Assembly: GCA_001896725.1 (NCBI GenBank)
Contig: MPPA01000033.1
Coordinates: forward strand, 62,001-126,000
Source: Methanococcoides sp. EBM-47
GTDB lineage: Archaea; Halobacteriota; Methanosarcinia; Methanosarcinales; Methanosarcinaceae
Length of the DNA: 64,000 bases
Direction: 5' to 3'
Shown here: piece after piece, positions 1,946 through 15,823 of the stretch
How the letters are laid out: each line of letters begins with the position of its first letter
Position numbering within the stretch: the stretch's first letter is position 1
Position numbers and translations under genes: made by a program
Notes under the pieces: generated by a model
Told to the model about the DNA's origin: nothing
The model's input: the letters and a program-made list of their open reading frames with translations, nothing else
The model's database searches: none

Positions 1946-2610
1946 CCCTAATCCTTTGTAAGGTTCAGAATATTCCTTAAGTTCTAATTCATTCCCCTTC
2001 CTTCCAACCTTTAAGATTAACTACAATTCTATAGATAAGGTTATATATAGTTAAGCTGCTGGAACTTTCCTGAACTTAAACATTTAAAACTAAAACCTTA
2101 ATTCATACATTAATGTAGAGACTATAAATATATTTTATATATTGATATTTTCATGTGGCTGGAACAAAAAGGAGGTTCAGGAATCCCAACCACGTGATTT
2201 ATAGCCCCCGGAGGGAGCAACTGATTCAATGCAACTCCATTTTATTACTTTCATCCTGCTCCAACAATCTATAAAACCTTTGACTTTTACTGATTGAGGA
2301 GGCATGTCCATGATTGGAGCAAACTATCCAGATTGTCGAGATCTGGATAATAGGTAATCATGATGAAGCTATTTGCGCCAACAAATAACACCATGCCCTA
2401 TAGTAAAAATGCTATGGTCTTATTTAACGGTTATTAATTGAATCAGTGATTTCAAATGAGTGATATATGAATATTAGAACTCCATAGCTGAAAAAAGTAA
2501 TAAAATGCCATTAACTGTAAAGTATCCTTTTTGTCAATTGCATCTAATACATTTATTAACAGTTATTTGGTATGTAATTAAAAGCATCAAATACCATTAG
2601 GCTATAGGAC
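1946..2610. other. Non-coding stretch containing a candidate att site
   Basis: No convincing gene. A short coding-like minus-strand run (LKEYSEPYKGLGCTVLDL) near 1930-1990 may be another decayed fragment of the glycan locus. The rest is AT-rich. The notable element is the 14-bp match to the tRNA-Thr 3' end at 2203-2216, listed separately. Confidence 0.5.
2203..2216 (+). other. Candidate distal attachment site: 14-bp direct copy of the tRNA-Thr 3' end
   Basis: AGCCCCCGGAGGGA occurs here and again at 12762-12775, where it is the acceptor/T-arm 3' end of tRNA-Thr(CGU) plus one flanking base. Both copies have the same orientation. The integrase gene at 11511-12671 lies directly inside the tRNA-proximal copy. 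This is the geometry expected for an element integrated into a tRNA 3' end, with the displaced end left at the far side. The match is short, so chance or older decay cannot be excluded. Confidence 0.5.
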
Positions 2611-3030
2611 TTATGATAAGTGTCCATTCTTCCAGAAAAAGGGTTTTTCCGGATTTCGTTCGAACCTTTCAAATACACTCGCGTAAAGAGCAGGGTATTT
2701 TGCTTCGGCAAGTGGAATAGAGAACATTCTTTCTGGATGGTCAGGACTTCCGCCCAAGCCGATCACAACAAAGAAATGAAGATTTGTTTCCCGTTCATAT
2801 TCCCTGTATCTCTCTAACTGGTCAGGATTTGTCCAGTCGAGTTTGTTCTGATACAAGTCCGATCTAAACTTGCACTCTACACAGAAAAGTTCCTCTCTAC
2901 CCTTATAGCGGTATCTCATCACCAGGTCGGGATTACAATCTGATTCAACGAAACGGTCATGTTTCCGTGCGATATTCGTTGTCCATTGTACAATTGAGAA
3001 GTAATTCTCATCAAAAAGGTCCACAAACAT
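2611..3030 (-). CDS. Small PD-(D/E)XK nuclease-fold protein
   Basis: About 139 residues from ATG at 3030; GTG at 3036 is also in frame, but GGAG sits five bases before the ATG. The core NPDLVMRYRYKG followed by LFCVECKFRS gives a D...E-x-K arrangement (D about 36, E-C-K about 53-55) typical of the PD-(D/E)XK phosphodiesterase fold. The tail LHFFVVIGLGGSPDHPE and FFWKNGHLS is shared by an uncharacterised family of stand-alone proteins of this type. It could be a nuclease, or a fold relative with another role. It lies just inside the candidate att site, as cargo of the 2.2-12.8 kb island, with no visible cognate methylase beside it. Confidence 0.7.
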   Translation of the reverse strand: MFVDLFDENYFSIVQWTTNIARKHDRFVESDCNPDLVMRYRYKGREELFCVECKFRSDLYQNKLDWTNPDQLERYREYERETNLHFFVVIGLGGSPDHPERMFSIPLAEAKYPALYASVFERFERNPEKPFFWKNGHLS

Positions 3031-3038
3031 GACCACTC

Positions 3039-3182
3039 CGGCAAACCCTCATCCTCGAAGTCCAGGCCATCACCAAGAATAAATGGGGCTTCTATAATTT
3101 CCTGCCCAGATCCTACTTCTTTGATGTCTCGCAGGTTCTGGACCTCTATGACACCTCCGAAGAACTTGACCCTTTAACCTGA
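3039..3182 (+). pseudogene. Orphan C-terminal coding fragment
   Basis: A 47-codon plus-strand frame ending in TGA at 3180-3182 reads like real protein (LEVQAITKNKWGFYNF, then SQVLDLYDTSEELDPL) but has no start and begins next to the divergent nuclease-fold gene. I do not recognise the family. It is most likely the leftover end of a gene cut by island rearrangement. Confidence 0.3.
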
Positions 3183-3689
3183 TTTACCGTTTCGCCCGCT
3201 TCGCCCATCATGGCAAGCGACCCAGGCCGCCCGCCTGATGGCGGCGGCAGGTAAGTACGGTGAACTGAAGAAATAAATTAGGAGAAACATTATTGGAACA
3301 CTGACTTCACTTCTACTTAGAGTCTACTAGCTTTAATGGGTCTGTAATGATGGATCTGCGCCTACCTGAAAAGGCCGTCTGCAAATTGAGAAATAAGCAC
3401 AGAGAAGAAACAAGCTTACTACATGAGTGAAAAGGAATCAGATAAATTTATCTTATTGATTTGATATATAATATAATGTAAGTGGGGATAATATGACGAA
3501 CATAAATTTAAAAATGGAATTAGTGTGAAGAATGTATTGGTGTCTATAGTTGGATGTACAAAACCGACAGATGAGCAGAGCTTTTCTTTTGTTTGGTAAA
3601 ACAAAAAAACCAATCAGCAGGATAACCAAGCTACCCGAAAGTAGGGTGAGATTACTGCTCAGTTTCAAAAAATTGAAAGGAGAAAAATC
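3183..3689. other. Intergenic stretch, nothing recognised
   Basis: About 500 bases with GC-rich debris near 3190-3250 and AT-rich sequence after it. No gene, RNA or repeat seen. The last 15 bases hold GGAG, the ribosome-binding site of the LGFP-repeat gene. Confidence 0.5.
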
Positions 3690-4601
3690 ATGACCACGAT
3701 AGAAATGAAGTATTCGCAACTTGGCGAAGCTAGTGGCTTCTTAGGGGAACCATTAACTACAGAATTAATGTGTTCAGATGCAGTCGGGCGTTACAACCAC
3801 TTCAAAGGTGGTTCTATCTATTGGCATCCTGACCTGGGAGCATTCGAAGTGCATGGGAAAATTCGTGAGAAATGGGCTAGCCTGGGATGGGAAAAAAGTC
3901 ATCTCGGATATCCAACGACAGATGAATGCATAACTCCTGACGGAATTGGGCGTTACAACCACTTCCAAGGTGGTTCTATCTATTGGCATCCTGATCTGGG
4001 AGCATTCGAAGTGCATGGGAAAATTCGTGAGAAATGGGCTAGCCTGGGATGGGAGAAAAGTTATCTCGGATATCCTAAAAGCGATGAAAATATCGAACTA
4101 GACGGAATCTGTCGTTGTAGTTACTTCCAAAGAGGATTTATTTATTCTCATCCTGATTTGGGGGCATTTGCCATGGCTGACAACAGCTTGGCACAACCTC
4201 AAAAGCCTTTCGGTGGATCATGGGATCCTACTTACGGATGCCAATGGCCCGGTGTGTGGAGGTCTAACTGGTATTCTCCAACAGGGTGGTATTGGGGCAA
4301 TATAGAAGTTGAAGTTGGAACCGGGAAGGCTCTTTTGAGGCACGATGGCCCATCAGGCGACTACAGTACGATGATGGGCTATGGTAGCCTTGTTTATGAT
4401 ACGTTTGGAAATCCTATTGCCTACCGTTGGGCTGGGCAATGGCAGCGAGAGAAGGGGCAATCAGGTGGCTCTAAGCAATATGGCCAGTTTGTTTTGGATC
4501 TAAGCTACGATTATAATAACTGCAAATTTGTGGGATTCTGGACCTATGGAGATGAAAATCCATTGACATCCAAAAATAAGTATGTTTGGCAAGGATTTTG
4601 A
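3690..4601 (+). CDS. LGFP-repeat protein with an aromatic-rich C-terminal domain
   Basis: 303 aa. Residues about 10-165 hold three LGFP-type repeats of 54 aa (motifs LGYP, GRYNHF, GGSIYWHPDLGAFEVHG, WASLGWEKS). The first two full units are nearly identical even at DNA level. LGFP repeats are found in cell-wall-associated proteins and esterases of actinobacteria and in scattered archaea and are thought to mediate surface or glycan contact. Residues about 175-303 form a Trp/Tyr/Gly-rich domain I do not recognise, probably beta-rich. No signal peptide is visible, which is odd for an envelope protein. ATG is preceded by AAAGGAGAAAAATC. It sits alone as island cargo. Confidence 0.8.
   Translation: MTTIEMKYSQLGEASGFLGEPLTTELMCSDAVGRYNHFKGGSIYWHPDLGAFEVHGKIREKWASLGWEKSHLGYPTTDECITPDGIGRYNHFQGGSIYWHPDLGAFEVHGKIREKWASLGWEKSYLGYPKSDENIELDGICRCSYFQRGFIYSHPDLGAFAMADNSLAQPQKPFGGSWDPTYGCQWPGVWRSNWYSPTGWYWGNIEVEVGTGKALLRHDGPSGDYSTMMGYGSLVYDTFGNPIAYRWAGQWQREKGQSGGSKQYGQFVLDLSYDYNNCKFVGFWTYGDENPLTSKNKYVWQGF
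3786..4075 (+). repeat. Tandem 162-bp coding repeat (two near-identical copies)
   Basis: Bases 3786-3913 and 3948-4075 are direct repeats at a 162-bp offset with about four mismatches over 128 bp. They encode LGFP units 1 and 2 of the gene above. The near-identity implies a recent duplication, or gene conversion, within the gene. Confidence 0.9.
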
Positions 4602-4749
4602 TTTCTGGTTGGCAGTAAGAGCTACCCCGACAGGGGGAAAAGACTGTTTGGTGGAATCATCAAACCCTATCGGGCAATGCTTCAGCATCGGTCATCTATG
4701 AGACGTTATAGCAGGCCAAAAACATTTCTTCATCTGGTCTGCTGTCTCA

Positions 4750-5107
4750 ATAGAATCCAATTGGGCTCGCAAGGAAGCGGTTGAAGGCGATTGAGGACAT
4801 ATTAATAAAGAGCAGATACGGCTTTACCACGATATTGGCCTTGAGATCCTGGACCGTCAGAACCAGCCGGGCTGGGTGCCAAGGTGATCCAACGGCTCTC
4901 CATGGATCTGCGGGAAGCTTTTCCAGATATGAAAGGCTTGTCCTCGAACAATCTCAAATACATGCGGTTCTTTGCCCAGAACTGTCCTGATCTTAGATTT
5001 GGTCAGCAGTCTGCTGACCAATTACCCTGGTTGCACATCGTGACACTGGTTACCAAAATGGGAACTTCTGAATTACAGGAATGGTATGGCAGGGAAACTA
5101 TCCAATA
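4750..5107 (+). pseudogene. Broken YhcG/DUF1016-family nuclease gene, N-terminal part only
   Basis: Two overlapping frames together read like the DUF1016 N-terminal domain: NKEQIRLYHDIGLEILDRQ in one frame, then from about 4875 GAKVIQRLSMDLREAFPDMKG, NNLKYMRFFAQ and QQSADQLPWLH, ending EWYGRETIQ and a TAG. The frame change falls at TGGGTGCC (about 4873-4880), where the family needs TGGGGTGCC, so one G has been lost. The expected continuation NGWSR and the whole C-terminal PD-(D/E)XK domain are absent. These genes usually accompany type I R-M loci, which fits the hsd operon 0.7 kb away. Confidence 0.75.
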
Positions 5108-5175
5108 GACAGTCTCTGCTGAAATCCTGTGAAATGTGAAACATTGTATGATGAAGATACAGCCGAATAGAGTAA

Positions 5176-5754
5176 TCAATCCAGTTTGTTCTCAATTTCA
5201 AGCAGTTTTTCGTATTCGTCTATCAAAGGATGGTCCCATGTTTCTCTGAGCATCCGCAACACTTCTTTTTCAAACCATAATTTCTGATCTTTTCCCCGAT
5301 TGAATTTTGTCCATATACCGGGTCCCTGCTCGGCATAGGCAACAAGGAGACTTTCAATGTTATGGATCTTATCCGCTACTGCTACAGCCTTTGCTCCTTC
5401 GGGACCATTTAGGACCGTTTCCACATACTTCTTTTTCTTTTCTTCCCACGAAAGACTGTCATCATTGGTTACAGCTTTGACGATCTCATATACCTCATTT
5501 CCAAGTTCAGCCTTCAACTGCTCGTGAGTACATGTGGTATCTTCAAGAACGTCATGTGTCAGAGCAGCAGCTACCACTGAATCAGAAAAGCCGTGTTTTG
5601 AAAGCTTCAAAGCCACCATGAACGGATGAATGATGTATGGCAAGCCGTCAACCTTTCTTTTTTGTCCCTCATGCGCTACCACAGCCAAACGAGTAGCCTT
5701 TTCAACAAGACCTATCTCAAAACCATTCTCAACGGTCGTATCATTCAACCTCAA
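5176..5754 (-). CDS. HD-domain hydrolase, MESH1/SpoT-hydrolase-like
   Basis: 192 aa with the (p)ppGpp-hydrolase style HD signature in order: ATRLAVVAHEGQKRKVDG, then YIIHPFMVA, then AALTHDVLEDT (the HD pair, near residues 67-68), then VAVADKIHNIESLL. This is the metal-dependent HD core of SpoT/RelA hydrolase domains and of small MESH1-type enzymes; no synthetase domain is present. Known relatives hydrolyse (p)ppGpp or NADPH phosphate; the substrate here is unknown. It starts 34 bases after the hsdS stop on the same strand, so it is probably the last gene of the type I R-M operon. That position suggests a nucleotide-signal role tied to defence, but this is inference. Confidence 0.82.
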   Translation of the reverse strand: MRLNDTTVENGFEIGLVEKATRLAVVAHEGQKRKVDGLPYIIHPFMVALKLSKHGFSDSVVAAALTHDVLEDTTCTHEQLKAELGNEVYEIVKAVTNDDSLSWEEKKKKYVETVLNGPEGAKAVAVADKIHNIESLLVAYAEQGPGIWTKFNRGKDQKLWFEKEVLRMLRETWDHPLIDEYEKLLEIENKLD

Positions 5755-5788
5755 AACCCCCTCTTTAATTCAAGCATCCCACGAGCAT

Positions 5789-7249
5789 TTATTTTTTGCC
5801 ACTTTTCCCCTCAGCTTTTATCCTCTTAAGCAGCACCTCAGCCGACTCATACTCCCTGCCCTCCTGCCTGGCAAGCTCAGCCTCTGTGGGCACAAGTTCC
5901 CCCGAAAATGCCTTTGCAAGAATGGACTGCCTCAATCTCTCCGTCTTCTCCCTTGCCACCGCCACCTTCGCTTCAATGGAATCAGCAAAAGCAAAGAGTG
6001 CATCGACCCGCCGGACTATTTCCTGCTGTTCGGGAAGGGGAGGGAGAATAAGAGGCCATTCACGAACAATTTTATTGGTTAAATTAGGTTGTGCTCCACC
6101 TTGACCTGCTTTTATTAATTCTTCTCTTTGAGATAGAAGGTAATAAAACAAAAACATACGGTTTATTACAACTGGGTTAACTTGACAATTAGCACAAGCC
6201 TGATTCGTTGCAGCATCAATATTTAAAACTCCAAGTTTTCCAATTGTTGCACCATATAATGCAATGGAAATAAAACCTGCTGGTAATAGCTTCGCTGAAC
6301 AATTATCCAATCCTTCTTGAGTTATTTTTTCTTCAGTATCTGTTACAATACCATCATTTAAATCTCCACTTTTGACCCATGAAATATTACCGCCAAAGTA
6401 TTCCTTTTTCTTTCGTGAAGGTGTGCTGCCTGTACTCCATTCGCCTATTTGTTCAAGTGCAGAATAAGCCCACCCCTCCGGCAGCTTCGGCAATTCTACA
6501 ATCTCCTCTTCTGTGAGAGGTTTTACAGGCTTTATTTTCTTACCGAAAGCCTTTGCAGCTTCTTCTCTCTCCTTGCGGATTTGTTCTAGCAATTCCCTTG
6601 CATCCGGCAAATCTTTCTGCTCCTCCCTCCAATCCTCCGTCAGCCTCCCATCGCACGCAGCAGCCAGCACCGCCTGCCTGAAAGCCTTCATGATCCCGGG
6701 CACCCTGTCAAGCCGCTCATTAGTCGCATCCAGCCGCGCGAAAAGTGCTTCGATGGCTGTAACTATGCGGTGCTGTTCGGGGAGGGGAGGGAGAGGAATT
6801 TGTGCAGCTTTGACTACTGTATCACTGGTTGCAGGGTACTGAGAGCCACGTTGTTGTGGAGTAACCGAGTCAATAAACTCATCAGTTTGCACAAAAATGA
6901 ACAAATATTTAGGTAAAACTCCTATAGAAGGCCGTAAAACCGTGAATCCCGTAGAACAAAGTTGATTCGTATATTCTTCTCCAACGATTGCTATATTTTT
7001 GAGATAGGTTCTAACGTTAGAGAATAGAACATCATTAGCCTTAATGGGACGGCGTGCTCTAGAAGGTGCATCTCTTCCTTTGAACTCCTTATATTCTGAG
7101 ATTACAAACCTACGATTATCTATGGATGAAATGTCAATGTACTTGAAATCTCTATCAGGCTCATTTTCAGGTTTCACGTTCTTAACATCGAGTGTAATAT
7201 CAAATAATCGAGTATTAGCCCACCCCTCCGGCAGTTCATTCTGCTGCAT
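5789..7249 (-). CDS. hsdS: Type I restriction-modification specificity subunit HsdS
   Basis: 486 aa with the standard two-TRD layout. TRD1 starts at LPEGWANTRLFDI and ends in the first conserved helix (LPPLPEQHRIV, then LFARLDATNERLD). TRD2 starts at LPEGWAYSALEQIG and ends in the second helix (LPPLPEQQEIVRRVDALF, then SILAKAFSGELVP). HsdS recognises a bipartite site and holds two HsdM copies. Its start overlaps the hsdM end by 14 bases. DNA coding for both TRDs (about 6070-6450 and 6840-7215) is distinctly AT-richer than the conserved helices, the usual mark of TRD exchange. Intact, no frame problems seen. Confidence 0.95.
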   Translation of the reverse strand: MQQNELPEGWANTRLFDITLDVKNVKPENEPDRDFKYIDISSIDNRRFVISEYKEFKGRDAPSRARRPIKANDVLFSNVRTYLKNIAIVGEEYTNQLCSTGFTVLRPSIGVLPKYLFIFVQTDEFIDSVTPQQRGSQYPATSDTVVKAAQIPLPPLPEQHRIVTAIEALFARLDATNERLDRVPGIMKAFRQAVLAAACDGRLTEDWREEQKDLPDARELLEQIRKEREEAAKAFGKKIKPVKPLTEEEIVELPKLPEGWAYSALEQIGEWSTGSTPSRKKKEYFGGNISWVKSGDLNDGIVTDTEEKITQEGLDNCSAKLLPAGFISIALYGATIGKLGVLNIDAATNQACANCQVNPVVINRMFLFYYLLSQREELIKAGQGGAQPNLTNKIVREWPLILPPLPEQQEIVRRVDALFAFADSIEAKVAVAREKTERLRQSILAKAFSGELVPTEAELARQEGREYESAEVLLKRIKAEGKSGKK

Positions 7250-8657
7250 ACCCGTTCCCCATCAGATCCAGAATAGCATTCAGTTCACCCACAGCGGCCT
7301 CAAGCTCATCGATGGCCTCTGCAGCAAGTTCCACAGGATCAGGCATATCATCAGTATCGCTCAGGGATTCATCCCTCAACCACCTGAGAGAATCTACCTT
7401 GTAATCCCGCTCCTTAAGTTCAGAGATATGGAACTTACGCCAGCGGTCTTCCGGTGAATCCTTCTCGTCACGCTTTGCCCTGCCGTTAGGATCATCACCA
7501 AAACATTTCTCGAACTCTGCGAAATGCTCCCGCGTAAGCGGACGGTCCTTCTTGGTGATCTTGGGCACGTTTGTCCGGCAGTCATACACCCACGTCTGGT
7601 CCGTGGGAATACCCTTGGTAAAGAAGATCACATTGGTTTTAGTACCCGGGGAATACGGGGTAAAAGTGCCATCAGGCAGCCTCAGCACAGTATGCAGATC
7701 GCAATCCTCGCACAGCACCTTGAACACCTCTCCTGCCTGATCGGCAAACAGCACATTATCAGGCACCACAATGGCAGCCCTGCCACCGGGTTTAAGGATG
7801 GTCATCACATGCTGGATAAAATTGAGCTGCTTGTTGGAAGTCTCCACTACGAAATCCTCACGTCCCGGAGACTGGTTCGCACCCTTCGTCCCAAATGGAG
7901 GATTGGTAAGCACCACATCGAACTTCTTAGATTCCGGGATCTCATAGATGGAATCACCCAGCTTTATCTCAGGCTCAATGCCATGTAAATACAGGTTCAT
8001 CAAAGCCAGTCTGCGAGGGCGTTCCACAAGCTCCTGTCCAAAATACGTGCTGTGGCGGATAAGCTTCGCCAGATCACGATCCAGTGCTCCACCTGCGGTC
8101 ATCTCCTTGAGCCATTCATAAGCACACACCAGAAAACCACCCGTACCACATGCCGGGTCCATGATAGAGAAATCCCTGTGACCCCGGGGATCAGGCTGCA
8201 TACATCTCACGATCATCTGGATAACAATACGCGGAGTGAAATACTGTCCTGCACCTTTCTTACCCTCGCTTGCAGCCTTCTCCAGCAACCCCTCAAAAGC
8301 CATAGCCTTAACATCAATATCCAGGCCCGTCCACTCAGTCTCATCAATAAGTGAGATCATCTTCTTCAGGCTCACAGGGTTATGGAAACGTGAAAGAGCA
8401 CCCGCAAAGATATCTCCCAGCAGGCCATCCTGCTTACCCAGGGTACGCAGTGCATCCGTATAATGCTCTATAAGCTCGGTCCCAGATTGCTCTTTCAGGG
8501 ATCTCCAGTCGCATTTCTCAGGAAGTGGAATTCCCCGCTCATCAGCCATCTTCAGGAACAGCAGGTACGTGATCTGTTCGATATAATCCCCGTAATCAAT
8601 ACCTTCATGCCGTAAAGTATGGCAAAAACCCCATAATTTCTGTACTATATCGCTCAT
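7236..8657 (-). CDS. hsdM: Type I restriction-modification methyltransferase subunit HsdM
   Basis: 473 aa. An HsdM N-terminal helical domain (about 1-130) is followed by the N6-adenine methyltransferase domain with motif I DPACGTGGF at 167-175 and motif IV TNPPFG at 251-256. The sequence GAGQYFTP at 136-142 is typical of the family. It transfers the methyl group of SAM to adenine in the HsdS target and forms the M2S core and R2M2S2 complex. Its ATG overlaps the hsdR stop by four bases (ATGA-type coupling), and its end overlaps hsdS. The C-terminal helical region (about 430-470) is as expected for HsdS contact. Confidence 0.96.
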   Translation of the reverse strand: MSDIVQKLWGFCHTLRHEGIDYGDYIEQITYLLFLKMADERGIPLPEKCDWRSLKEQSGTELIEHYTDALRTLGKQDGLLGDIFAGALSRFHNPVSLKKMISLIDETEWTGLDIDVKAMAFEGLLEKAASEGKKGAGQYFTPRIVIQMIVRCMQPDPRGHRDFSIMDPACGTGGFLVCAYEWLKEMTAGGALDRDLAKLIRHSTYFGQELVERPRRLALMNLYLHGIEPEIKLGDSIYEIPESKKFDVVLTNPPFGTKGANQSPGREDFVVETSNKQLNFIQHVMTILKPGGRAAIVVPDNVLFADQAGEVFKVLCEDCDLHTVLRLPDGTFTPYSPGTKTNVIFFTKGIPTDQTWVYDCRTNVPKITKKDRPLTREHFAEFEKCFGDDPNGRAKRDEKDSPEDRWRKFHISELKERDYKVDSLRWLRDESLSDTDDMPDPVELAAEAIDELEAAVGELNAILDLMGNGYAAE

Positions 8658-11332
8658 GCTGCAACCGCGCTGTTAAATTCTGAGATCAGGTCCGGAAGTG
8701 TACCCGCAAAAACACGGTTGGCCTTGTTCCAACCGCCATAATCGGCAAACACCGGAATATAATCAAAGTCCTCTTTATCAATGGAAAGGTTAGCCACCAG
8801 ATGTGACCTGATACGCTCAAGCCATAGCTGCTGATCTGAAGTAAAGCTTTTGCCCATGGTCACTTTATCGAAAGCCCGGCTGACCCGCTCCTCAGCCGTA
8901 AGCAATGACTCTTCTTCCCGCGCAGCATGCTTGATCATGGAAATAATGTCCACAAGAGCTTTGTTGTACTTCACTTTATGAGCTCTTTGCAGATTCTCAA
9001 TAGTAAAACGCTGCTGGGATGATGTCAGTTTATGTTTCAGCTCGTCAAGCGCTTCCGTGTTCCACTCCTGAGGCCGGTCCAGAAGAATACTGATCGCAGC
9101 GATCTTTTCAGGATTCTCTTTCACAAATTCCGAGAACATGGTCAGATAATCATCAGGCTTGTATTCGTTACCCGAAGCACCTCTTATGATAAAGGTGGAT
9201 GATACCTCATCCACGGTCTCATAGTCAACAATGAAAGTTCGCGGCGGACGTGGATAATTTTCAAGCAGGTTCAGGAAATCCTTGTCTCTTAAAATCGCCA
9301 TTGTGCCGGTGAAATCCTCGGAAAGCCGCCTTTCGAGAGAGACAGCGAACCGCTTCAGATCACCTTTTTCTATAAATGCGCTGAACATATCCCGCGCTTC
9401 TCCGCTCATCTCCTTATCGATCCTGTTAAGCCGCTTTGTCAGAATGCGGACATTATAGGCACGGTCCCGGTTATTCCAGATATCATCGATGACCCTGGCA
9501 ATGGGCTTTACTTCCCTTGCAGGCGGTTCAGCCGTGACACCTGTAACCGACCTGAAATATTCAATAAGACTACCTGCAAAACAATCAAAGACCATAAAAT
9601 GAGATTTATCAGGATAATGCTCACCCTTGCGCGTACCCCGTCCCATCATCTGCTCAAAGAGGATACGGGATTTGACCGAGCGTAAAAATACGATATACTC
9701 CAGATCAGGTATATCGACCCCTGTGGAGAGCAGATCAACGGTCACAGCAATGCCAGGCTCTTTCCTGTTCCTGAACTCCCTGATCCTCTGCAAAGGCCGG
9801 TCAACCTTACCTGTGATCTTCTGGACAAAGGCATCTCCCCTGCCAAAAACATCCCTGGCAAGGTCAACGATCTGATCAGCATGAGAAGTGTGTGGCAGGT
9901 CCTGTACAGCAAAGATAAGGGTCTTGGGAAAACGCCCGTATCTTTCTTCATGCTCATCTGCATACCGCTTGATCTCCTCCAGGATCTTCCTGTTGGAATC
10001 AACGGACGTGATCTCTTTTTCTATTTTTTCAGCAGAGAACTCACGTTCATCTTCAAGCATATCGATCTCCCGCTGGCCAGTCTCAGGATCGATGACCTCT
10101 ACGGTCTCCCCTTCATGCAGGAATATGCCATTCATACGCACCCCGGATTCCAGCGCCACGATATCATAATCTACCAGATATCCATCCCTTACAGCCTGTT
10201 CATATCCGTACTTGAACACAATATCCCTGAAATATGCAGATGTATGAGCCGCCGGTGTAGCTGTAAGCCCTACTTTGATGGCATCGAAATGATCAAGGGT
10301 CTTTCTCCATGTAGAGATCTCCTGTGCAGAATAACCTCTATGGCATTCATCAGCGATTATAAGATCAAAGGCATGAATGGGAATATTGAGTTGCGTTGCA
10401 TCCTCTTCCTCAGCCTCGTCACAGCTTGAGAACACTGAAGTTTTACCGAAGAGGTTGATGGTCATCCTCTGGATAGTGGAAACATATACGAAACTGTGCT
10501 CTCTCTTTGGATTTTCAAGGTAAGAACCTGGCATCACACTTACATCGAAGGATTCACCTTCATCAAGATCTCCCTTCTGGAAACGCTGACTGTAAACCTC
10601 ATAGGTTTTATCGAATTTCAATCCCTGCTCGGTCTCAAAGGATGAAAAAGCGCGGACAGCCTGTGCTGCAAGTGCCCTTCTGTCAACCAGGAACAAAACC
10701 CTCTTTGCCACACCCGCTTTCATCAGGCGGTAGATGAGGTTGACGATCATAAACGTCTTCCCGGTCCCTGTGGCCATTGCGATCATCATTGTCCGTTTCC
10801 TGTTAGTGATGGCCCTGCCTATGGCATCACATGCATCCGCCTGATAAGGTCTCATCCTTTCGTTATCAGGCACTTCGAAGAATTTATCTTTGATATTTTC
10901 AAAATCGTAACTCAGCCTTTCCAGCAAAGCTTCAGGGGTATGAAATCCCGATATCCTCCTTGAACGGTTAAGAGGATGCCGGACATCATGATGCCAGATC
11001 TCTTTTCCATTTGTCGAATACAAAAACGGAACCCGACAACCATCATAGTTAAAGGGATTTTCAGGAAGCCCGCGTGCATACCTCTCTGCCTGGGTCAGCA
11101 CGTTCTGAGGACCCAGAGTAACTTTTTTTGCCTCCACAACTCCAAGTATTTTCCCATCCACACACAGAGCATAATCAGCAGGACCATTATCAGTAGGATA
11201 TTCCTCGATTGCACATTTATTGTGATCCTTCAGCCCTTTGATATCAGCATAGTGTACAATATCCCAACCAGCAGTAACCAGCAAAGGATCGATAAGTTGT
11301 TTCCTTGTCTTGAATTCGTTGAGATTATGCAT
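8654..11332 (-). CDS. hsdR: Type I restriction endonuclease subunit HsdR (EcoEI-like)
   Basis: 892 aa. The N-terminal nuclease domain shows D53 and E67-A-K69 (PD-(D/E)XK). The SF2 translocase follows, with Walker A ATGTGKT at 187-193, DECH in IIADECHRGYS, an SAT-like LTATP, and motif VI MMGRGTR. The end IPVFADYGGWNKANRVF is characteristic of the EcoEI (type IB) R-subunit C-terminal domain. It cuts unmodified DNA after ATP-driven translocation. First gene of the operon; a TATA box lies about 55 bases upstream. All catalytic motifs are intact, so the system looks active. Confidence 0.95.
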   Translation of the reverse strand: MHNLNEFKTRKQLIDPLLVTAGWDIVHYADIKGLKDHNKCAIEEYPTDNGPADYALCVDGKILGVVEAKKVTLGPQNVLTQAERYARGLPENPFNYDGCRVPFLYSTNGKEIWHHDVRHPLNRSRRISGFHTPEALLERLSYDFENIKDKFFEVPDNERMRPYQADACDAIGRAITNRKRTMMIAMATGTGKTFMIVNLIYRLMKAGVAKRVLFLVDRRALAAQAVRAFSSFETEQGLKFDKTYEVYSQRFQKGDLDEGESFDVSVMPGSYLENPKREHSFVYVSTIQRMTINLFGKTSVFSSCDEAEEEDATQLNIPIHAFDLIIADECHRGYSAQEISTWRKTLDHFDAIKVGLTATPAAHTSAYFRDIVFKYGYEQAVRDGYLVDYDIVALESGVRMNGIFLHEGETVEVIDPETGQREIDMLEDEREFSAEKIEKEITSVDSNRKILEEIKRYADEHEERYGRFPKTLIFAVQDLPHTSHADQIVDLARDVFGRGDAFVQKITGKVDRPLQRIREFRNRKEPGIAVTVDLLSTGVDIPDLEYIVFLRSVKSRILFEQMMGRGTRKGEHYPDKSHFMVFDCFAGSLIEYFRSVTGVTAEPPAREVKPIARVIDDIWNNRDRAYNVRILTKRLNRIDKEMSGEARDMFSAFIEKGDLKRFAVSLERRLSEDFTGTMAILRDKDFLNLLENYPRPPRTFIVDYETVDEVSSTFIIRGASGNEYKPDDYLTMFSEFVKENPEKIAAISILLDRPQEWNTEALDELKHKLTSSQQRFTIENLQRAHKVKYNKALVDIISMIKHAAREEESLLTAEERVSRAFDKVTMGKSFTSDQQLWLERIRSHLVANLSIDKEDFDYIPVFADYGGWNKANRVFAGTLPDLISEFNSAVAA

Positions 11333-11385
11333 CAGGAATCCCCAATAATCAGAATTGATGAACTTTAAAATGTATAGTTTATTGA

Positions 11386-11393
11386 TATAAATA
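11386..11393 (-). promoter_or_regulatory. TATA box of the hsd operon
   Basis: On the minus strand the sequence reads TATTTATA, a good archaeal TATA element. A start site about 25 bases downstream would leave a leader of about 30 nt before the hsdR ATG. Confidence 0.5.
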
Positions 11394-11510
11394 AGTTAAG
11401 AATGAAGGTCAATAATGTTTATGAAGTTTTAACTAACTTCATCTAATGTATAAGAACCTGAAAGTATAAAACCAAAAAAATGTCAATAAAAAGTAGTGAG
11501 GAGCATCCCC

Positions 11511-12671
11511 TCACACACTCTCCCTCAATATCTTCGCGATCTCCGGCTCCTTCTCCACAAGCTCCATCAAGGCCATGGCAATATCAGACCGCTTCTTCTC
11601 GATATCAACGGCAACATCAACCCTCAAGGCCATACCACACCGGGAACAAAAAGTCGAAGTAGGCCCGTTCACCTGTCCGCACCTGGGACATGCCGTACTT
11701 GTAAGCTGTGGCATTGTGTCCTCTTCCTTTATGATCCCGTGGATCTTCAGGATAGCTTCATCGATCTGCTTACCTGACAGGTGCACATAGGTCTGAGGCA
11801 TGTTAGAACCCTGCACCCATCCCAGATGTTCCTTCATCTGGGATTCAGTCAGGTATTGTGCAAGATCTGTGCTCCGGGAGTGGCGGAAAAGGTGATTATA
11901 AACCCTTTTCTCAACCCCTGCCTTTTCAGCAGCACTCTTGATCACCTTTCTCAAAGATTCATATTTAAGTTGTTTTCCAATCTCTTTACCTTCAAGCCTG
12001 GTCCATAGGTAAACATTAGGGTCATGTTTTTGAGGATGGATATCCAGCCAGGCAGCCAGGTAAGGCACACTGAACACAAGCCTGACCCTTCTCATTCCTG
12101 TCTTTCCATCTTCCTTCCCGATCAGAACATAAGCTCCGTACTTATCAAAAGAAACATGCTTGATCTTGACGTTCCCGTTCTCTCCCACCCTGGCACCGTT
12201 ATCGTACCATATCGCTATAATGGCCTTATCCCTGGGATGGGTCTTTGACTCGATCATCCTGACTATATCTTCCTCTGTAAGCAGTTCTTCAGGCAGCATC
12301 TTGCTTTGCCTGATCCTCAAGGATATCCAGCTGGTGATCTTAGGTTCCTCTTCATCGTTGAGCCACTTGTAGAACCTTTTGATACACTGCTTGTAATCAT
12401 GCTTGGTCCAATCCTTCTTATTGGAACGCTCCAGCTTTGCAACGTAGTACTCGATATCATCCTTTGCAGCATCTCTAAAATTGATCCCCAGATCCTGGGA
12501 GATGATATGCAATTGCTGCAAGTACTTCAAAACGCGAGGAGTAGACAGACCCTGTGCGAACAGGAAATTCTCGAACCTGATAATAAGTCTCTTATTTTCC
12601 TCAGAATAAGCAGCATTCTCTATCCTCTCTTCAGTTCTTTCCAACGCTCTCTCGTGGTTGTAAATAGACAT
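11511..12671 (-). CDS. Tyrosine recombinase/integrase with C-terminal zinc ribbon
   Basis: About 386 aa from MSIYNHERALER; the frame is open nine codons further. The N-terminal half is a SAM-like core-binding domain. The catalytic residues are visible: Arg in NGARVGE, H-x-x-R in NHLFRHSRSTDLA, His in KEHLGW, and Tyr in QTYVHLSG. A Zn ribbon CPRCGQVNGPTSTFCSRCG sits near the C-terminus, as in many archaeal integrases. It lies 91 bases from the 3' end of tRNA-Thr(CGU), with its N-terminus facing the tRNA. It most likely catalyses integration and excision of the 2.2-12.8 kb island. Confidence 0.93.
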   Translation of the reverse strand: MSIYNHERALERTEERIENAAYSEENKRLIIRFENFLFAQGLSTPRVLKYLQQLHIISQDLGINFRDAAKDDIEYYVAKLERSNKKDWTKHDYKQCIKRFYKWLNDEEEPKITSWISLRIRQSKMLPEELLTEEDIVRMIESKTHPRDKAIIAIWYDNGARVGENGNVKIKHVSFDKYGAYVLIGKEDGKTGMRRVRLVFSVPYLAAWLDIHPQKHDPNVYLWTRLEGKEIGKQLKYESLRKVIKSAAEKAGVEKRVYNHLFRHSRSTDLAQYLTESQMKEHLGWVQGSNMPQTYVHLSGKQIDEAILKIHGIIKEEDTMPQLTSTACPRCGQVNGPTSTFCSRCGMALRVDVAVDIEKKRSDIAMALMELVEKEPEIAKILRESV

Positions 12672-12761
12672 AGTTCCAACATCCCTACTTTTGAACATAT
12701 CTTACATCCGAGCAGGATGAAAGTAAAATCTGTAATGAGGGAATTGGACTGAAAATACAAA

Positions 12762-12775
12762 GCCCCCGGAGGGAT
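12762..12775 (+). other. Candidate tRNA-proximal attachment site
   Basis: This 14-bp segment covers the last 13 bases of tRNA-Thr plus one flanking base and is repeated in direct orientation at 2203-2216. The tRNA remains complete, as expected when the element brings in a replacement 3' end. Confidence 0.5.
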
Positions 12776-12833
12776 TTGAACCCTCGACCTGCTGATTACG
12801 AATCAGCCGCTATACCGCTAAGCCACAGAGGCA
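12763..12833 (-). tRNA. tRNA-Thr (anticodon CGU)
   Basis: 71-nt cloverleaf on the minus strand. Acceptor GCCTCTG pairs with CGGGGGC, with G-U pairs. The anticodon arm is GCTGA-TTCGTAA-TCAGC with CGT in the loop, and the T arm is GAGGG-TTCAAAT-CCCTC. No CCA is encoded, usual in archaea. A TTATATAA element lies upstream at 12850-12857. It is the probable integration target of the neighbouring recombinase. Confidence 0.95.
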
Positions 12834-12967
12834 ATTGATTCATTAAAGATTATATAAGAATTTAATTATTTCGCTTAGCCTGCAATTCTTACTTCAACGC
12901 AGACATGGAACCAGTGTAGAGAATATTAATGTAATTAGGTTCTAACAGAAGCAACATTAATAAATTC

Positions 12968-13180
12968 TCATTTCAGTTTTATTACACAGATGTTACCGAT
13001 CTTCTCCATGAATAATTTATCTTCCCTTGCAAGCCAACCAATGGCCATTAAAACCGTTTCCGAATCATAACCGCTTTTTTTAAGCGCTCTCTTCACTTTA
13101 GATATAGTTGACTCGTCTTTTTCAAGTAATCTATAAACATGCCCAGCTGCCTCTCCTATATGAAAACATACATCGCTCAT
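12968..13180 (-). CDS. Small winged helix-turn-helix protein (PF10771/DUF2582-like)
   Basis: 70 aa, MSDVCFHIGEAAGHVYRLL then STISKVKRALKKSG and VLMAIGWLAREDKL. This pattern (GxxAGxVWxxL, then a recognition helix and AIGWLAREDK) is that of the small winged-helix family found in archaea and Bacteroidetes. Probably a DNA-binding regulator, target unknown. Preceded by GAGGGAAAA and starting 7 bases after the stop of a tiny zinc-ribbon gene, so the two form a micro-operon. Confidence 0.8.
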   Translation of the reverse strand: MSDVCFHIGEAAGHVYRLLEKDESTISKVKRALKKSGYDSETVLMAIGWLAREDKLFMEKIGNICVIKLK

Positions 13181-13187
13181 TTTTCCC

Positions 13188-13343
13188 TCACTCTTCTAGT
13201 ATAATTGAGTCATATAGCACTAATGGTTCAAGTCGTACTGTACCTGTCCTTGTCCAGTATCCACAAACTTTGCAAACTTGTATATTCTTTTGGGTCATCT
13301 GTAATTTGGCATAGCATTCCGGACAGTTCTTCAACAATCTCAT
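13188..13343 (-). CDS. 51-aa zinc-ribbon protein
   Basis: Reads MRLLKNCPECYAKLQ then NIQVCKVCGYW, i.e. two C-x2-C knuckles 16 residues apart, the minimal treble-clef/zinc-ribbon layout. The stop is directly followed by the ribosome-binding site of the wHTH gene. Likely a nucleic-acid-binding or partner protein of that regulator. Confidence 0.65.
   Translation of the reverse strand: MRLLKNCPECYAKLQMTQKNIQVCKVCGYWTRTGTVRLEPLVLYDSIILEE

Positions 13344-15823
<2,480 letters not shown>

Follow-up and report, generated by a model that had tools for sequence, protein, structure and literature searches.

The 64-kb window analysed here, a stretch of contig C22 in a 2.18-Mb Methanomethylovorans genome, raises the question of whether the accessory genes that accumulate beside its tRNA-Thr gene constitute a mobile element and, if so, what controls the movement of such an element. 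The original prediction was of a type I restriction-modification (R-M) island of about 10.6 kb, integrated at this tRNA and bounded by a directly oriented 14-bp repeat of the tRNA 3′ end at 2203-2216. The features that define its boundaries are the following:

12761-12832, minus strand: tRNA-Thr(CGT), whose 3′ end is the integration site (ARAGORN, Rfam)
12761-12774, no strand: att core on the tRNA side (repeat search of window and genome)
2203-2216, no strand: att core on the far side, a fragment of the tRNA 3′ end (repeat search of window and genome)
2147-2201, minus strand: ancestral flank beyond the far repeat, resembling the DNA right behind the tRNA-Thr of congener G002 (local alignment)

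This tRNA-Thr(CGT) gene was the sole tRNA called by ARAGORN in the window. The 14-bp core AGCCCCCGGAGGGA (plus strand) corresponds to its last 14 bases, and its two directly oriented copies delimit an island of 10,558 bp, counting one core copy plus the interval. Genome-wide counts were obtained by pattern searches, which found AGCCCCCGGAGGGA twice in the 2.18-Mb genome, at the two island boundaries, against no match for the reversed control; no third copy was detected in the 64-kb window when up to two mismatches were allowed. The predicted repeat is therefore a genome-unique pair and not a sequence scattered over many unrelated places.

An empty site, proposed earlier as a check, was searched for with the tRNA sequence as the query. 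In the congener G002, the DNA following the tRNA matched the far flank of the island over 55 bp, at the same offset from the tRNA end (local score 33, with none of 1000 shuffles scoring as high), and the island-internal flank gave no match at this same place. The homology expected of an empty site was thus found over 55 bp in a single congener. This same genome holds a decayed copy of the element 930 bp farther along, with 93% DNA identity at the integrase start and 93% in the HD gene. Given this flank match and the decayed elements in G002 and G004, the ancestral site in this lineage was probably free of the island. Two other guides to an empty site were dropped: gyrB synteny, as the tRNA was not beside gyrB in any relative, and the left flank, as its glycosyltransferase gene (787-1704) was found only in G001 and without the tRNA. 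The genome-unique repeat, the G002 flank match and the related integrases located 3′ of tRNAs in elements whose right ends match (see below) make it almost certain that a mobile island was inserted at tRNA-Thr, as had been predicted.

The gene adjacent to the tRNA encodes the enzyme presumably responsible:

11511-12671, minus strand: tyrosine integrase with a C-terminal zinc ribbon (Pfam, alignment)

The integrase is full length, and its alignment with relatives shows the conserved catalytic residues (R161, K190, HxxR at 260-263, W285 and Y295), in agreement with the earlier statement that its motifs are intact. Comparison with relatives suggests that translation starts at MSIYNHE (12671) and not at 12698, which places the integrase start some 90 bp away from the tRNA. 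Plausibly, the island is still able to excise. The last 38 residues were identical or nearly so in some congeneric elements and the remaining residues 52-63% identical, and this near-identical C-terminal stretch suggests that parts have been swapped between elements. A scan of IMG/VR with the integrase returned no match, and phage and plasmid collections yielded distant integrases only, with a best full-length match of 36% identity; among viruses, Geoglobus pleomorphic virus 1 has the nearest integrase (36%).

The cargo between the integrase and the far repeat comprises:

8654-11332, minus strand: hsdR, type I restriction subunit (domain searches)
7236-8657, minus strand: hsdM, type I methyltransferase (domain searches; 89% identical protein in G012)
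5789-7249, minus strand: hsdS, type I specificity subunit (domain searches)
5176-5754, minus strand: HD_4 phosphohydrolase (domain search; 91% identical protein in the G002 element)
4793-5109, plus strand: YhcG (DUF1016_N) relic with in-frame stops (domain search)
3690-4601, plus strand: LGFP-repeat protein (domain search)
2611-3036, minus strand: possible PD-(D/E)XK nuclease, 141 aa (weak Pfam; 50% identical homologue in the G009 element)

The genes hsdR, hsdM and hsdS are intact, overlapping ORFs of a single operon that is predicted to encode a type I R-M system, with an HsdR C-terminal domain of the EcoEI type. The presence of hsdRMS, of the HD hydrolase and of the LGFP protein, all named in the original prediction, was upheld by ORFs and domains, and YhcG is indeed broken, its DUF1016_N domain being interrupted by in-frame stops. 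Some similarity supports the PD-(D/E)XK protein, but this label is weak, as its match to Pfam PDDEXK_13 (E=0.009) falls under the cut-off of that profile. The type I R-M operon justifies the term defence island, although the remaining cargo is partly decayed. A DUF7845 replication initiator was not found among the scanned island ORFs. A close relative of hsdRMS (HsdM 89%, HsdR 79%) was also seen in another genus, at 8902-14286 of G012:C121 (L332), with no copy of this integrase near it, and the R-M operon thus appears to have been exchanged recently.

Integrases of the same group were located directly 3′ of tRNA-Thr(CGT), Ser(TGA), Ser(CGA), Asp(GTC) and Met in several genera, and the right ends of four other elements could be identified. 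One element (G003:C55) is bounded by 26-bp direct repeats about 14 kb apart; the far boundary of the G009 element is a fragment of the tRNA-Thr end, that of the G002:C84 element a fragment like the tRNA-Ser end (12 bases, p 0.003) and that of the G003:C109 element one like the tRNA-Asp end (18 bases, 0/1000 shuffles as good). By these comparisons, the island is a member of a Methanosarcinaceae element family that uses varied tRNAs with one integrase group and one end design. Cargo pieces also appear to be common to different elements (G002, G004), and a decayed element at tRNA-Ser(CGA) in G004 holds pieces of the hsdS and the integrase tail of the island. The right end itself carries a conserved feature:

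2244-2446, plus strand: right-end module, consisting of a promoter and a short predicted transcript (88-95% identical in three other elements)

The module contains two tiny ORFs (2304-2357 and 2360-2437) or else encodes a structured RNA; a structure test gave z -1.46 and three pairs with double changes, with an unfavourable covariation term, and no Rfam match to the transcript was obtained.

Two sister elements that share the integrase group and end design of the island (G003:C55 and G009) carry DUF7845, which work from 2026 established as the initiator of Rep-Arvir rolling-circle replication (PMC13107129), and in this they resemble Rep-Arvir viruses, proviruses and plasmids such as SNJ2 (PMC13107129). 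The island, unlike Rep-Arvir elements, has a restriction operon and no replication gene among the scanned ORFs. As DUF7845 is missing from these ORFs, the island is read as a non-replicating relative, which would have descended from a replicating Rep-Arvir element by losing the replication gene.

Other arrangements of integrases and tRNAs were observed in these genomes. In G009 (L131/L155), two head-to-head integrases flank a tRNA-Thr 3′ fragment, and two tandem elements lie behind one tRNA, one of them with Rep-Arvir and virus-like small genes. In the genome of the island, a second decayed family element with an intact copy of the promoter box described below is found at tRNA-Ser (G000:C33, 9121-10179, L146), and a lone 3′ end of an integrase gene lies about 42 kb before the window (10203-10514 in G000:C22:10001-30000, L145), with 87.5% protein identity, an in-frame TGA in the wider match and, about 3 kb away, a piece matching window positions 3108-3279. 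In G005:C2 (L126), two identical complete tRNA-Thr(CGT) genes (7038-7109 and 13299-13370) are separated by about 6.3 kb, and a different integrase (46%) lies next to the far one, as for an element duplicating the whole tRNA; a similar tRNA-Thr pair is present in G010 (L130).

Both ends of the island also bear a promoter-like box:

12711-12726, minus strand: promoter box TTACTTTCATCCTGCT upstream of the integrase (motif search)
2245-2260, plus strand: promoter box TTACTTTCATCCTGCT at the right end, inward-facing (motif search)
2270-2277, plus strand: right-end TATA box TATAAAAC, 9 nt past the promoter box (sequence; conserved at other right ends)

The 14-bp consensus of this box, ACTTTCAYYYYGCT, is perfect and faces inward at both ends and has no further match of at least 13/14 in the 64-kb window. 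The left box precedes the integrase and is followed by a weak TATA-like stretch in this genome and by a better TATA in relatives, and the right box precedes the conserved short predicted transcript. In the reconstructed attP, they form a perfect 17-bp inverted repeat with ACTTTCAYYYYGCT as its 14-bp centre part, one copy on each side about 30 bp (28-34 bp) from the att core. The box upstream of the integrase was perfect in 14 of the 15 members of the integrase group, three of which had been found via the box itself, and matched at 12/14 in the remaining one, whereas the 19 integrases from outside the group, of which several are also next to a tRNA, had no such box. On the integrase tree, the box requires 2 changes compared to 8.9 in shuffles and is strongly clustered. 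The original description of a mobile island is supported; it missed the end boxes, the right-end module and the Rep-Arvir link.

It could be argued that the island is fixed and that an element now immobile left behind both the boundary repeat and the boxes, as YhcG is broken, no replication gene was found in the island and relatives often hold decayed copies. However, the perfect att repeat, the full-length integrase with its catalytic residues, the intact hsdRMS and the perfection of both boxes make a dead remnant unlikely.

The box is not restricted to these elements, being present in 50 of 60 Methanosarcinales genomes, with matches far above those of the reversed control (a handful only). 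In host radA promoters across Methanosarcinales it lies 9-11 nt upstream of TATA, and 22 of 28 radA promoters had a box of at least 13/14, mostly at a near-fixed distance to the start; none of 26 gyrB promoters used as a control had it. Among 114 distinct sites, 80 had a TATA-like sequence 5-22 nt downstream, compared to 6.7% of random positions, with a spacing peak at 9-10 nt; the other 34 had none at the expected distance, and some sites are inside genes or ahead of genes unrelated to repair. According to NCBIfam, the 67 proteins encoded downstream of the box included RPA (11), RadA (8), XerA-type recombinase (6), RecQ (5), rSAM_link_UDG (4), Hef (2), MCM (2), XseA (2), UvrA (1) and RecJ (1). 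Of the exact matches in six Methanomethylovorans genomes (n=18), 8 fall at starts or relics of integrases, 3 at right ends of elements and 3 at radA, and the sites in the genome of the island include both island ends, the relic integrase at tRNA-Ser (C33), radA and hef.

A comparable signal is known from Halobacterium, where UV-B-induced genes, radA1 first, have TTTCACTTTCA upstream of TATA, a motif also found in the Methanospirillum radA promoter (PMC2556686). As with the box, this motif has an ACTTTCA core and is placed upstream of TATA at radA (PMC2556686), whereas the Methanosarcinales box extends 3′ with YYYYGCT, is without the doubled TTTCA and spans more repair genes as well as integrase promoters. 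A near-match, TTTTACTTTCA, is located ahead of a Halobacterium transposase gene (PMC2556686), and the integrase box of the island reads TTTTACTTTCA too. Given the UV-B precedent of TTTCACTTTCA and this reading of the integrase box, the box is most likely a longer version, proper to Methanosarcinales, of a damage-responsive promoter element. In Saccharolobus, ANTTTC is the DNA damage response element bound by Orc1-2 (PMC9738581); it is similar to the core ACTTTC and acts there as a damage-responsive promoter element, but it consists of 6 bp only. The element family has most likely placed a damage-type box at both ends.

The box could instead be a replication- or growth-linked host signal that an ordinary tRNA-targeted island uses for its integrase promoter, without damage induction. 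MCM and RPA are replication genes, and the open-access literature searched yielded no damage experiment on Methanosarcinales; nevertheless, recQ, hef, uvrA, recJ, xseA and radA belong to repair, and in Halobacterium it is UV-B-induced genes that bear the similar motif (PMC2556686), so that this alternative seems quite improbable. Least probable is our first reading, in which the boxes are purely arm-type sites for the integrase or a directionality factor, comparable to those of phage lambda attP, and the likeness to repair promoters is coincidental or secondary. It is favoured by their inverted, symmetric placement some 28-34 bp off the core, with boxes at the two ends of at least three elements. 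It was demoted once the same 14-mer, with the same TATA spacing, was met at radA, RPA, recQ and hef, where an integrase plays no part; the right end moreover has a perfect TATA box 9 nt after its box. Still, as each box is some 30 bp off the core, the two might also, or instead, be sites for the integrase or an accessory protein, and a dual role in promotion and recombination could be envisaged.

We thus favour, as fairly likely, the reading of the island as a replication-deficient Rep-Arvir relative with a defence operon, whose integrase would be tied to the host DNA-damage regulon. The att repeat, the empty-site homology, the intact integrase motifs and the box shared with the same spacing are all seen in the sequence. 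The island most probably entered the 3′ end of tRNA-Thr(CGT) by means of its own tyrosine integrase; upon DNA damage or replication stress, the host regulon would be switched on through a regulator, the integrase would be co-expressed with it through its box promoter and the element would then excise. Damage-type control of the integrase is itself fairly likely, and DNA damage may be the trigger for island movement, as both ends bear the promoter signal of host repair genes. We give about an even chance to the broader proposal of an SOS-like, coordinated Methanosarcinales damage regulon marked by ACTTTCAYYYYGCT, in which elements captured the box at both ends and host damage signalling would drive their excision and the spread of defence genes. 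In either case, the box offers a concrete, testable site that ties radA, RPA and other repair genes to integrase promoters across Methanosarcinales.

In bacteria, SOS-controlled integrative elements and prophages have their mobility under host damage regulation through LexA, and the elements described here would act alike, with a host damage signal governing mobility. Among archaea, the integrase of SSV1 shows UV-induced expression, from a viral early promoter (PMC8371274), and PYG1 of Pyrococcus is described as having no identified replication module and as occurring in circular form (PMC8371274). With tRNA-targeted archaeal islands of the PYG1 type, which have a complete integrase, the island shares the tyrosine integrase, the insertion site and the accessory cargo; it differs from them in the host radA-type box at the integrase promoter and at the far end, and in the shared right-end module that links elements at different tRNAs.

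Box promoters were also observed ahead of small conserved proteins of about 30-48 aa (MEDELWNGLVKR..., MDDFFTELVNRAR...) at L168, L173, L191-L193 and L311, and two of these loci are close to an HTH_20 protein. Such small box-preceded proteins are candidates for damage-induced proteins or for a regulator. Finally, in three genomes (L228, L236 and L224) the box stands before a start reading M(N/D)TRLT(S/R)FKAR, after which the sequences diverge and reach a stop after about 33 codons.
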